Part shown: piece after piece, positions 7,912-12,967 of the stretch
Layout: each line of letters begins with the position of its first letter
How positions within the stretch are numbered: the stretch's first letter is position 1
The notes under the pieces: model-generated
Databases searched by the model: none
What the model was told of the DNA's origin: nothing
The model's input: only the letters and a program-made list of their open reading frames with translations
Program-made: the position numbers and the translations under genes
Source: Kofleriaceae bacterium
GTDB lineage: Bacteria; Myxococcota_A; Polyangia; Haliangiales; Haliangiaceae
Direction: 5' to 3'
NCBI GenBank assembly: GCA_022842285.1
Contig: JALHPV010000028.1
Location: 1 to 39,908 of the forward strand
DNA length: 39,908 nt

Positions 7912-10662
7912 TCAGTCAGATCCAGCAGTGAGCTCCGCGCGCAGCTCGGGGCACGCCGTTGGCCCCAGTGCATCGAGCGCGGAGAGCCCACGTTCGCGCG
8001 CTGCTCTGGCAGCGGTGTGATCGCCGGTGGCGGCGAGGGCCTTCGCGGCGATCGACTGGGCCTCGCCCTGGTAGGCCTTCGCGATGACCTTGTTGGCGGA
8101 CTCCGCGGCTTCGCTATAGCGACGAGCCGCCAGGTGCACGTGCGCCTCGGCCAGGTTCAGGTCGTCGAGCAAGCGCGGCTGGTCACCGGCCATCGCGACG
8201 AAGCGCGGGCGCGCATCGGCAACCGCGCGCTCGGCCTCGGCTAGCTGGCCCTTCGCGAGGTGAAGCCGCGCGTAGCTGAGCTGGATGTAGGCGACATTCA
8301 TGCCCGCATCGACAGCGTTGGTGCTTCGCGCTCCCGCGAGCACGGTCTCGGCATCGGCGAGCGCGCCGGTGGCGATCAGCGCGTCGGCCAGCACGCGGCG
8401 CTCGTCCTCCGACGAGAACCGTGCGCCAAACCGCTCCTTCACTTCGATCGCGTGCCGGTTGCCAGCGATCGCCTTGGCATAGTCGCAGTACAAGGCATCC
8501 ACGGCCGCGAGCTGCCCCTCGAGCTCCACGGTGTTCATGTCATCGAGCCCCATCACCTCGACCATGATCTGATGAGCGGTCCGCATGTCCTCGGCGCAGG
8601 ATGCGACCTCGTCGTTCAGCAGGCGGTGGAGAGCGCGCATCCGCAACAGATTGGCGTAGCCTGGACTGCGCGGCCCGTGGAGCGCGGCCACGCCAGAGAG
8701 TGCGTCCTCGAAGACCTCGGCGGCCCCGGTCGGATCTCCCGAGAGGCTGCCGAGCATGGCGTTGAGGACAAGGAGCGACGACACATCGTAGGCCGTGTCC
8801 GATCGGCGACGCATGCTCGCGATCAGGCCCGGCAGCATCGCGCGCGCGGCCGCGTACTCACCTCGCAATATGTGCAGTTGCAGCTCTGACCTCGCGAGCT
8901 GATCGACGAGCCGCGGGGGATCTCCGACGCGGGCGATCGCGGCCCGAGCGACGGTAGCCGCGGCGGTGGCGCGGTCGAGTTGACCCTCATCGATGAAGGT
9001 CGCGACGCCTTGCGCCTGAAACGCGGCCACATGCTCGTCGAGCCCCAGCGACGTTGCGAGTGCGAGGGCTCGTCCGAGCTCGCGATCGCTGTCGCCGAAG
9101 CGCTGCGCGGTGTTGTACGCACTGGCGAGGGCCCCGGCCGTCTCCATGTGCAGAGGTGGATAGTCGACGGCCCGGGCTTCACGGTCTGTCGTCTCGAGGA
9201 TCGGAATGGCCTCGGCTATTCGCAGCACGGATGCGAGGGCCTTCCCGTGCTCGAGCCCTGCGCGAATCCGGGCGACCTCGCGCGAGATCGCAGGCGGAGG
9301 GGCACCAATCCGCGCACCCGCGCTCTGGCACCTGCGCAGGTCCGGCAGATCTCTTGCGGCCAGCATCAACGCGTCGCCCGCGGTCGTTCGATCGAGCGTC
9401 TCGAGAACGGCGGTTCGACTCACGAGGGCCTCGAGCCCACCTTCGAGGCACGCCCTCTGGAGCTCGCGCTGTTGCGAGTCGGCGACCTTGCAGGTGTCGT
9501 CCCAGGCCGTCCGCCATTCGGCGCCGTAGTTCTCGAACGCTTTCAAGGTGACATCGGCGGCGGCACCCGCGAATGGTGCGATCTCCACGATCGACGCGCG
9601 GATCGCGGCGCGGCGTTCAGCGCTCCAGTGAGGTGCGAGCTTCTCGGCGCTGCTCGTGCAAGTCGGAGCCGACGAGCGACTGGTGAGGCGCGCGACGCCA
9701 AACACGACGGCGAGCGCGGCCAACGCGGCGACCGCACTCGCGATCGCGATGCGGCGCGTGCGCGCGCGATCCCCATCGAGCGCGTTCACGAGCTCGGTCA
9801 TGCTCGGCCAGCGCCGTGCGGGATCCGCTGCCAGCCCGCGCTCGAGGACGCGCCGGACCCGCGCCGGCACCCCGCGCCCGTCCTCCGGCTCGATGATCGC
9901 GCCCCGCTCGATCGCCGCGATCAGCTCATCGAATGTCTCGCCCGTGAAGGGCCGTGCTCCGTACAGGAGCTCCCAGGCGAGCACGCAGAACGCGAACTGA
10001 TCGCTCGTCGTCGAGACATCTCCGCGCGCCTGCTCCGGCGCCATGTACGCCGGCGTTCCGACGATCGAGCCCTCGAACGTCAGTGCATTCGCGGAGGCGC
10101 CGAGGGGCGGGGACTTCATGGGGTCTGGCTCGTCATCGGCCGCGCGCGCGAGCCCGAAGTCGCCGACCTTGACCGCGCCGCTCGTCGACACGAACACGTT
10201 GTCGGGCTTCAGGTCACGATGGATCAGTCCGGCCGCATGGGCCGCGGCGACTCCGCGCCCGACGTCGACGAGCGCGCGGATGAGCGTCCGCACCGGCCGG
10301 CGCACGCTGCCCCACTCGCGCAGGTTCGCGCCCTCGACGAGCGCCATCGCCACGAAGCTCTGGTCCTCGTGGACCCCGACGTCGTAGACATCGACCACGT
10401 TCGGGTGGTCGAGCTTGGCGAGCGCCTTGGCCTCGCGCCGCAGCCGCGCCGCGGACGCCCCGCGATGCAAGAGCTTGATCGCGACCCGCCGATCGAGCGC
10501 CGGATCGCGGGCGACGTAGACGATGCCCATGCCCCCTGCGCCGAGGTGGCGCTCGATGACGTAGCGGTCGATCGACGCGCCAGCTGAGAGGAGATGCGTC
10601 GGCCGGTCCGAGACCGGCGGTGTGCCCTCTCCCACGATCGTCGATTCGACCGTCACCTTCAT
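7912..10662 (-). CDS. Membrane serine/threonine protein kinase with C-terminal TPR-like region
   Basis: A protein of 916 residues. The kinase domain spans about 34-295: LGAGGMGIVY, Lys63, catalytic Asp151 in HRDLKPDN, DFGLARA and GTPAYMAPEQ. One membrane helix follows at about 306-326. The remaining 590 residues are alanine-rich helical repeats of the TPR type common in myxobacterial kinases, for example the blocks around AGALASAYNTAQRFG and YIQLSYARLHLAKGQLAEAERA. The helical part would be periplasmic and could sense ligands or scaffold partners. The start ATG at 10662 has GGGGCGGG just upstream. The gene converges on the shorter kinase with a 34 bp gap, so two kinases lie tail to tail; they are not close paralogues in the C-terminal part. 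Confidence 0.93.
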   Translation of the reverse strand: MKVTVESTIVGEGTPPVSDRPTHLLSAGASIDRYVIERHLGAGGMGIVYVARDPALDRRVAIKLLHRGASAARLRREAKALAKLDHPNVVDVYDVGVHEDQSFVAMALVEGANLREWGSVRRPVRTLIRALVDVGRGVAAAHAAGLIHRDLKPDNVFVSTSGAVKVGDFGLARAADDEPDPMKSPPLGASANALTFEGSIVGTPAYMAPEQARGDVSTTSDQFAFCVLAWELLYGARPFTGETFDELIAAIERGAIIEPEDGRGVPARVRRVLERGLAADPARRWPSMTELVNALDGDRARTRRIAIASAVAALAALAVVFGVARLTSRSSAPTCTSSAEKLAPHWSAERRAAIRASIVEIAPFAGAAADVTLKAFENYGAEWRTAWDDTCKVADSQQRELQRACLEGGLEALVSRTAVLETLDRTTAGDALMLAARDLPDLRRCQSAGARIGAPPPAISREVARIRAGLEHGKALASVLRIAEAIPILETTDREARAVDYPPLHMETAGALASAYNTAQRFGDSDRELGRALALATSLGLDEHVAAFQAQGVATFIDEGQLDRATAAATVARAAIARVGDPPRLVDQLARSELQLHILRGEYAAARAMLPGLIASMRRRSDTAYDVSSLLVLNAMLGSLSGDPTGAAEVFEDALSGVAALHGPRSPGYANLLRMRALHRLLNDEVASCAEDMRTAHQIMVEVMGLDDMNTVELEGQLAAVDALYCDYAKAIAGNRHAIEVKERFGARFSSEDERRVLADALIATGALADAETVLAGARSTNAVDAGMNVAYIQLSYARLHLAKGQLAEAERAVADARPRFVAMAGDQPRLLDDLNLAEAHVHLAARRYSEAAESANKVIAKAYQGEAQSIAAKALAATGDHTAARAARERGLSALDALGPTACPELRAELTAGSD

Positions 10663-11705: not shown

Positions 11706-12281
11706 GTGTCGCGGCTAGGTGAGCTGACAGCGAAGATCGACGGGTTCTTTGCGCGCGTCGAGGCGCGCCATGGTGATGACATGCAGTGCCAGACGGGCTG
11801 CTCGGACTGCTGCCACGTGCGGCTCTCCGTGACGGGCGTCGAGGCCGACGCGATTCGTGCTCTGGCAGCAACGATGCCGGCCGAGGTGCGAGCCGCTTTC
11901 GGGACCGGACCGGAGGACCGCTGCGCGGCCCTCGACGGGGCGGGGCGCTGCATGATCTACGACGCGCGGCCGGTGATCTGTCGGAGCCACGGGGCGCCGA
12001 TTCGCATGCGGCGGGACAGCCTGCCCGTGATCGCCGGCGGGCGAACCGCCGAAGGGCGACGCGGTTCGATCGCCGGCGGGCGAACCGCCGGCAGCGGCGC
12101 CGAAGGACGCGGTTCGATCGAGGCCTGCTATCGGAATTTCACGCACACCGAGCCCGCGCCCGACTGCGTCCTGGACCAGACGACGTTGTCGGCACTCACG
12201 CTGGCGGTGGACCGGGATGCCGGGTACGACGGCGTGCGGCAGGACCTCGCGGAGTTGCTCACGATGCTCAGAGGGGCGTGA
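11706..12281 (+). CDS. YkgJ family cysteine-cluster protein with in-frame repeat insertion
   Basis: A protein of 191 residues from the GTG at 11706. The cysteine pattern fits the YkgJ (CxxxCxxCC) family, thought to bind zinc or iron: C28QTGCSDCC, then a later block with RCMIYDARPVICRSHGAPI and further cysteines at EACYRNF and APDC. Its function is not established. Between LPV and EACYRNF there is a low-complexity insertion of about 29 residues made of two copies of an IAGGRTA-type repeat; it is encoded by a duplicated palindromic DNA element (12029-12115). Without the insertion the family sequence would read on smoothly. The start is uncertain: an in-frame ATG at 11682 overlaps the divergent LysR start. 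Confidence 0.82.
   Translation: MSRLGELTAKIDGFFARVEARHGDDMQCQTGCSDCCHVRLSVTGVEADAIRALAATMPAEVRAAFGTGPEDRCAALDGAGRCMIYDARPVICRSHGAPIRMRRDSLPVIAGGRTAEGRRGSIAGGRTAGSGAEGRGSIEACYRNFTHTEPAPDCVLDQTTLSALTLAVDRDAGYDGVRQDLAELLTMLRGA
12029..12115. repeat. Tandem palindromic repeat inside the YkgJ gene
   Basis: Two imperfect direct copies lie back to back, 39 bp (12029-12067) and 48 bp (12068-12115). Both begin with gatcgccggcgggcgaaccg and end with acgcggttc, and a partial third start (gatcg) follows at 12116. Each copy contains a short hairpin: CGGCGG-GCGAA-CCGCCG in the first, extended to seven base pairs in the second. Both lengths are multiples of three, so the host frame is kept. The copies differ by a 9 bp insertion and by single bases, which indicates that duplication was followed by drift. 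Confidence 0.85.
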
Positions 12282-12295
12282 TAGGAAGGCGCTCG

Positions 12296-12967
12296 ATGAT
12301 CACGCTGCAGCAAGTCGAGCAGATCAAGACCGATGTCGCCGGGCCCGTGCTGGCGCTCGATCACCCGCGCTTCAAGCAGGTGTGGGAGTCGATCTTCACG
12401 CGCAAGCTGGTCGCGGATTGCATGACGCATGCGTGCACGATGGTCGACAAGACGCCGCACCAGCAGAAGAACGACGCGTGCTGCCAGTACGGTGTCGATG
12501 TCGATCTGACGGAGCGCGAGGCGATCCTGGCGCGGGCCGATCAGATCCGGCCGCTCTTGCGCGCCGAGGTCCAGCACCTACCGTGGTTCGATGACGAGAT
12601 CGAAGAGGATCCGGACTATCCGTCGGGCAAGGTGGTCCGCTCCGCAGTGTTCAACGACCGCTGCCTGTTCCTCGCGCACGATCAGCGGGGCTGCGCGATC
12701 CACCGCGCGGCGTTCGAGCAGGGCTGGGACTTCAATGGCGTGAAGCCCGGCATTTGCCGCCTGTTCCCGCTCAGCTACGAGGACGACACGATCGTGATCG
12801 CCGACGAGTACCCCGAGTATTCGTGCGCCCACACAGACGGTCCGTCGGTGTACCGCGCAGCGCGGGATGGCCTGCGCGATCTGTTCGGGCTCGAGCTCGT
12901 GGCCGCTCTCGATGCCGTCGAGGCGCGCGTGCTGGCGAGCCAGCCCCGCAAGCTCCCCGTCGTGTAG
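12296..12967 (+). CDS. DUF3109/YkgJ-superfamily cysteine-cluster protein
   Basis: A protein of 223 residues, probably cytoplasmic because no signal peptide is seen. The C-terminal half carries the family signature: DRCLFLAHDQRGCAIHRAAFE and then KPGICRLFPL, which fits a metal-binding cysteine cluster. Further cysteines lie in the N-terminal part (DCMTHAC, DACCQYG). The molecular role of DUF3109 proteins is not known. The ATG at 12296 has a strong ribosome site, AGGAAGG at 12283-12289, and begins 14 bp after the previous stop, so this gene and the YkgJ gene probably form an operon. The two proteins belong to related but different cysteine-cluster families and do not look like recent duplicates. 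Confidence 0.85.
   Translation: MITLQQVEQIKTDVAGPVLALDHPRFKQVWESIFTRKLVADCMTHACTMVDKTPHQQKNDACCQYGVDVDLTEREAILARADQIRPLLRAEVQHLPWFDDEIEEDPDYPSGKVVRSAVFNDRCLFLAHDQRGCAIHRAAFEQGWDFNGVKPGICRLFPLSYEDDTIVIADEYPEYSCAHTDGPSVYRAARDGLRDLFGLELVAALDAVEARVLASQPRKLPVV

Follow-up and report, generated by a model that had tools for sequence, protein, structure and literature searches.

Short two-hairpin elements lie in frame at TCGA sites of protein-coding genes in a Kofleriaceae genome and a related species

Introduction

Palindromic insertions that keep the reading frame of their host gene are regarded as a hallmark of Rickettsia. The Rickettsia palindromic elements (RPEs) are short palindromes, about 100-150 bp long and found in A+T-rich alphaproteobacteria, that lie in frame in many unrelated conserved genes and add a recurring peptide, and the orthologues outside the group are empty. 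To our knowledge, no mobilising enzyme has been identified for them. RPE-1 to RPE-3 and others (Ogata et al., 2000) have been reviewed repeatedly (PMC10969869; PMC3767692; PMC2229807), and their target-site duplication is marked '?' in PMC2229807. According to a 2024 review, in-frame fusion reaches an unusually high frequency in RPEs, and similar protein evolution in other prokaryotes is only 'conceivable' (PMC10969869).

Two other groups of small repeats are relevant here. REPs carrying a GTAG or CGTC tag, including intragenic ones (PMC3733652), are small hairpins that occur singly or in arrays in hosts with Y1 (RAYT) transposases; they are mostly intergenic, and some lie in ORFs. The MITEs with in-frame ORF fusions, namely ERIC/RU-1, YPAL/RU-2 and Correia/NEMIS (PMC2229807; PMC2759123), are non-autonomous elements of about 100-200 bp that duplicate their target, are mainly intergenic with occasional in-frame fusions, and often have TA ends and terminal inverted repeats.

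Here we analyse a 39,908-nucleotide stretch of a Kofleriaceae bacterium (contig JALHPV010000028.1, assembly GCA_022842285.1), referred to as the window, in which a reading made from the letters alone (the sequence-only reading) had noted two hairpin-forming units inside a single gene and likened them to RPEs. We find that a hairpin-forming mobile sequence of 51-57 bases is present in this genome in at least some hundred copies. Those copies that can be placed lie mostly inside working genes, essential ones included, and each adds about 17-19 amino acids and leaves the gene unbroken.

Results

A tandem array within a YkgJ-like gene

The host gene encodes a YkgJ-like protein (Pfam CxxCxxCC, E 2.8e-8). 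Its start is GTG 11706, with ATG 11682 also possible, and the product is 191 aa long including a 29-aa insertion. The features of the locus are as follows.

11706-12281, forward strand: gene for the YkgJ-like CxxCxxCC cysteine-cluster protein, the host gene (Pfam PF03692 and homologue alignments)
12030-12068, forward strand: element copy 1, 39 bp, encoding IAGGRTAEGRRGS; the 51-bp unit minus 12 bp in frame
12069-12116, forward strand: element copy 2, 48 bp, encoding IAGGRTAGSGAEGRGS; the 51-bp unit minus 3 bp in frame, in hairpin 2
12030-12035, forward strand: left junction ATCGCC, the left target copy with its last bases altered (ATCGAG in empty homologues)
12117-12122, forward strand: right junction ATCGAG, the right target copy
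12034-12051, forward strand: hairpin 1 of copy 1, core CGGCGG gcgaa CCGCCG
12073-12090, forward strand: hairpin 1 of copy 2
12091-12111, forward strand: hairpin 2 module of copy 2, 3 bp shorter, preceding the constant tail GGTTCGATCGA

The two direct units of 39 and 48 bp described in the sequence-only reading are indeed present in the registers given above. Both lengths are multiples of three, and the two copies together encode IAGGRTAEGRRGS followed by IAGGRTAGSGAEGRGS, the 29-residue in-frame insertion that had been proposed. At the insertion site the two nearest YkgJ-like homologues read LPV directly followed by IESC, and the nearest of them has ATCGAG there. When homologues from genus to class were aligned, none of the 19 carried the 29 residues, and the conservation that would speak against an insertion was not seen.

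The parent 51-bp unit is ATCGCCGGCGGGCGAACCGCC-GGCAGCGGCGCC-GAAGGGCGACGCGGTTCG, and an exact string test identified both window copies as exact deletion derivatives of it. In copy 1 the 12-bp deletion fuses both hairpins, and copy 2 is recognised within the window with a module score of 24.3 bits (E 1.5e-6).

Just downstream of the host gene, the stretch 12297-12967 codes for another cysteine-rich protein (CMTHACTMVDKTPHQQKNDACCQYG), and the two genes may be transcribed together. At a sister locus (L042), sequence resembling this region continues from the YkgJ-like domain without a break in the open frame.

Copies in the genome and in related species

The sequence-only reading had also asked whether the unit occurs elsewhere. 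It recurs at 45 other places in the window's genome (G000), with E values from 4e-16 to 1e-3, far more than expected by chance, and in one further species of its genus (G010), so that an RPE-like element inserting within coding genes is supported. Both element-bearing genomes consist of many contigs, and G010 is a named MAG; they appear to be drafts assembled from metagenomes, and our copy census is built from searches and retrieved sequence stretches. A 24-base core with up to three mismatches matched 39 times in the window's genome and its reversed control not at all. The 3' module GCCGAANGGCNNCGCGGTTCGATCGA, with up to two mismatches, was found 54 times in G000 and 37 times in G010, whereas the 33 further genomes searched within the order had none. 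When 84,980 species genomes, a set that may omit records of the window's own genome, were scanned for exact matches, the only assembly to be hit was JANXOM01, a Deltaproteobacteria MAG that is evidently G010.

A search with a less strict structural pattern, AGCNNNGCCGAAKGGCNNNGCGG with one mismatch allowed, gave 127 matches in G000, 63 in G010, 13 in the sister species G005 and 0-4 elsewhere among 54 other genomes, and the reversed controls gave 0-4. By this measure the only signal above background outside the two element-bearing species is in G005 and perhaps in a further sister species, G003. The consensus also has weak matches in other genera (E about 1e-6 to 1e-3), for which we make no claim; there the structural pattern is at background. 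Viral contigs contained no exact match to the element, and the limited library of literature searched contained no description of the family. The element thus apparently represents a separate, undescribed family.

Empty sites and the insertion target

For the host genes compared, homologues from up to five genomes lack the insert at the exact site. All four empty sites in Lpd contain TCGA (ATCGAC, GTCGAC, GTCGAT and ATCGAC), as do all four in HrpA (ATCGAG three times, CTCGAG once), with an 18-codon difference in both cases, and all three in GlmU (GTCGAC, GTCGAC and GTCGAG). TCGA was also present at the empty site in three of four GuaA homologues, two of three biotin carboxylases and most paralogues of the M3 peptidase; other hosts, for example PolA and an acyl-CoA synthetase-like protein, showed the gap without a clear TCGA. 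Inserts are flanked on both sides by TCGA or NCGA, of which empty orthologues have a single copy, and this amounts to a target-site duplication. The left target copy is often ACGA, GCGA or CCGA, not exactly TCGA, and the target may therefore be looser (NCGA), or the duplication may be of 3 bp rather than 4.

The hosts, named by Pfam, include the usually essential enzymes GuaA, GlmU, Lpd, a DnaE-like polymerase, PolA and biotin carboxylase. Insertions lie within Pfam domains such as Pyr_redox_2, LigD_Prim-Pol, Peptidase_M3 and DAO, and against the solved structures of Lpd, GuaA and GlmU the insert falls in a gap. Orthologues from the other element-bearing species, where aligned, were empty as well, and the inserts compared therefore most likely postdate the separation of the two species. 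This pattern of presence and absence between species points to a mobile element.

Frame and orientation within genes

We assigned coding frames with a simple codon model of the flanks, trained on the ORFs of the window, and counted sites rather than copies, because the copies of an array are not independent. This yielded 57 distinct confident coding sites in the two genomes (58 listed, one of them twice). At 48 of the 57 the element lies in the sense orientation and in one and the same frame (GSGAEGRRGSID); another eight are antisense, again in one frame, and a single site is sense in another frame. The consensus peptide of the sense frame, about I-D-G-G-x-x-A-G-S-G-A-E-G-R-R-G-S, is short and hydrophilic. 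When 768 nearby control positions were classified identically, the six frames were about equally represented. Confident coding placement was obtained for 62% of copies versus 80% of control positions, and genes are thus not much avoided.

The phase of the target is informative here. In the window's genes, TCGA falls in the phase NTC GA in 233 of 280 cases (83%), and this predominance predicts both of the frames seen. The 48:8 (6:1) excess of sense insertions goes beyond what the supply of targets would give: binomial p = 2e-8 for TCGA, p = 5e-4 for ATCGA versus TCGAT in the relevant phases and p = 8e-10 for a CGA target.

A strong preference for the sense strand would also be expected of self-splicing elements, and it might be asked whether the element is removed or bypassed at the RNA or protein level, as an intron or intein would be, so that the host proteins carry no peptide. 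This can hardly be the case: the eight antisense copies are also in frame, the lengths, including those of the deletion derivatives in the window, stay multiples of three, which would be needless if the element were spliced, and Rfam returned no match. A length of 51-57 bp is also far too short; we know of no self-splicing intron or intein of that size.

Single units make up 49 of the 58 listed sites, with arrays of two to five units elsewhere. Such arrays, like the two-unit array of the window, are what slippage or tandem-repeat expansion within single genes would produce with no mobile element involved. As an account of the family this is extremely unlikely, given the prevalence of single units, their location between residues that are adjacent in orthologues, and the presence of the unit in dozens of unrelated genes and on both strands. 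Slippage is thus refuted in general; local duplication still explains the window's second unit. The array in the window is best explained by an inserted element that later underwent tandem duplication and small in-frame deletions.

Anatomy and folding

The full unit reads TCGA-C-[hairpin 1]-GGCAGC-[hairpin 2, loop GAAG/GAAT]-GCGGTTCGA-TCGA. From the start of the left TCGA to the start of the right one the distance is most often 51 or 54 bp in G000, and 54 or 57 bp in G010. The few distances that are not multiples of three include a period-50 array on contig C189 of G000. This locus (L232, about 9218-9473) is a five-unit tandem array with no convincing coding frame across it.

The two adjacent hairpins are predicted to be closed by pairing of the TCGATCGA ends into a three-way junction. 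Consensus copies fold with z scores from -4.9 to -5.9, the 59-nt family consensus with z = -4.9 and the window's own array with z = -3.0. Compensatory changes maintain hairpin 2: among 106 unique modules, positions 9 and 20 form a Watson-Crick pair in 83% versus 50% after shuffling, and positions 8 and 21 in 54% versus 31%; none of 1000 shuffles attained the observed pairing at either pair, a test that related copies can inflate. Hairpin 1 occurs with about 90 distinct stems in 103 copies, and its inverted repeats are longer than those in the flanks (mean 5.1 versus 3.8 bp, p = 1e-18). The palindromic structure of the hairpins is accordingly maintained across copies despite the changes in stem sequence. 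In hairpin 1 the sequence turnover between copies is almost complete, far above that of hairpin 2 or the tail, with palindromy kept.

The diversity among copies is equal at the three codon positions (0.60, 0.61 and 0.67 bits at positions 1, 2 and 3), and many of the variable columns are paired stem columns. This equality suggests that it is the structure, rather than the peptide, that the element appears to conserve. It also bears on whether the insert could be a functional peptide that many proteins have recruited, such as a tag or a motif for cleavage or binding, with the fixed frame reflecting selection on the peptide. The dominance of one frame at 48 of 57 sites and the conserved appearance of GSGAEGRRGSID would fit such a role. 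We nevertheless consider it highly improbable: orthologues do without the insert, even in the other species that bears the element, the hosts share no pathway, and copies in the antisense frame encode unrelated peptides. Selection at the level of the peptide was rejected on the equal diversity at the three positions.

Related repeats and candidate mobilising enzymes

The sister species G005 contains a relative with the same two-hairpin design, GCAAGGCCCGGCttgCCGGGCC-GCGC-AGCACCGCCGAAGGGCGGTGCG-AAGGTAGATCG, whose 58-bp period is not a multiple of three. Almost all of the copies examined in G005 lack coding flanks, and G003 has a few similar ones. The repeats at L320 and L322-L330 (G005) and at L331-L332 (G003) are apparently non-coding, sometimes form arrays and have a GGTAGATCG-like tail. 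This apparently intergenic 58-bp repeat is a possible ancestor of the form that invades genes, if the direction of change is as we infer.

We found no mobilising enzyme among the Y1 and reverse transcriptase candidates in the genus; the TCGATCGA ends pair, and no autonomous parent transposon was found. An association with reverse transcriptase was rejected, with RVT_1 present once in G000 and absent from G010 (about 89% complete). Transposases of the Y1 (RAYT) type occur in 15 of 16 genus genomes, both hosts included. The element might be of the REP/RAYT type, with an HUH tyrosine transposase (Y1_Tnp) mobilising it in single-stranded form, an account that would name the mover without contradicting a mobile element. 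Its two-hairpin anatomy resembles that of a single-strand substrate, the related intergenic hairpin form of the sister species has GGTAG in its tail, and strand-specific insertion would predict the orientation bias. We nonetheless regard this account as rather unlikely, because Y1 genes are equally common in species without the element, no element copy lies beside a Y1_Tnp locus over the cut-off in G000 or G010, and the coding forms are without a GTAG or CGTC tag, none standing at the stem foot in the consensus of the 106 unique modules. Target duplication, moreover, is not typical of HUH transposition.

Discussion

The dispersal of the unit, its clean insertion relative to empty orthologues, the shared target, the bias in frame and orientation and the kept stem pairing are very probably the work of a selfish mobile DNA element, 51-57 bp long and non-autonomous, that enters protein-coding genes and leaves them unbroken; the origin proposed for the array in the window is part of this account. 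These results extend the sequence-only reading beyond its single gene by the TCGA rule, the orientation and frame bias, the covarying hairpins, the insertions in essential genes and the related intergenic form. We envisage that the element, as a single strand, would form two neighbouring hairpins, with pairing of the TCGATCGA ends closing the structure, and would be transposed by an enzyme acting in trans. Insertion would take place at a TCGA (or NCGA) tetranucleotide and leave TCGA on both sides. In this G+C-rich genome TCGA in genes is mostly read as the codons NTC and GAN, and this would set the frame. Together with a length that is a multiple of three and a stop-free reading, such a target would avoid a frameshift and give a short hydrophilic insertion. 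Survival would be left to those proteins able to tolerate it, and purifying selection would cause the remaining bias. The gene-invading forms would have arisen from the intergenic 58-bp repeat of the genus through changes to a gene-compatible length and frame.

It is also possible, if somewhat doubtful, that the element has become adapted to genes. The intergenic 58-bp repeat would then have produced stop-free subfamilies of 51, 54 and 57 bp in two species, and the TCGA rule and strand-biased insertion would make nearly every insertion in a gene in-frame and sense. Should this be true, the element would evade purging not by staying out of genes but through the place and manner of its insertion.

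This element adds a second example of in-frame palindromic gene insertion, from a G+C-rich lineage that is unrelated to Rickettsia and has a large genome of 8 Mb. It comes with a large number of young insertions, with orthologues that are empty and with a well-defined target. Two old questions thereby become testable: by what means these elements move, and whether target choice or selection preserves the frame. The element also provides essential enzymes, naturally and steadily, with insertions of 17-19 residues.

How does the element compare with the systems described previously? Like RPEs, it is dispersed across unrelated genes, its in-frame insert is absent from orthologues and its hairpins are maintained. 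At 51, 54 or 57 bp, however, it falls short of the about 100-150 bp of RPEs proper, and it occurs in a G+C-rich deltaproteobacterial genus. It further differs from RPEs in its two adjacent hairpins with changeable stems, its strong sense-strand, single-frame bias and its duplicated TCGA target. Host lineage and composition make a sequence relation to the RPE families unlikely, and with length, sequence, G+C content and hosts all differing, common descent is neither shown nor likely. With REPs the element shares small hairpins, single or arrayed, and a host with Y1 genes, but its placeable copies are mostly intragenic and untagged and none flanks a Y1 gene. The intergenic sister form has a GTAG in its tail. 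The MITEs resemble the element in being non-autonomous and in duplicating their target, whereas the element ends in TCGA(TCGA), and its placeable copies lie as a rule in the midst of conserved genes.
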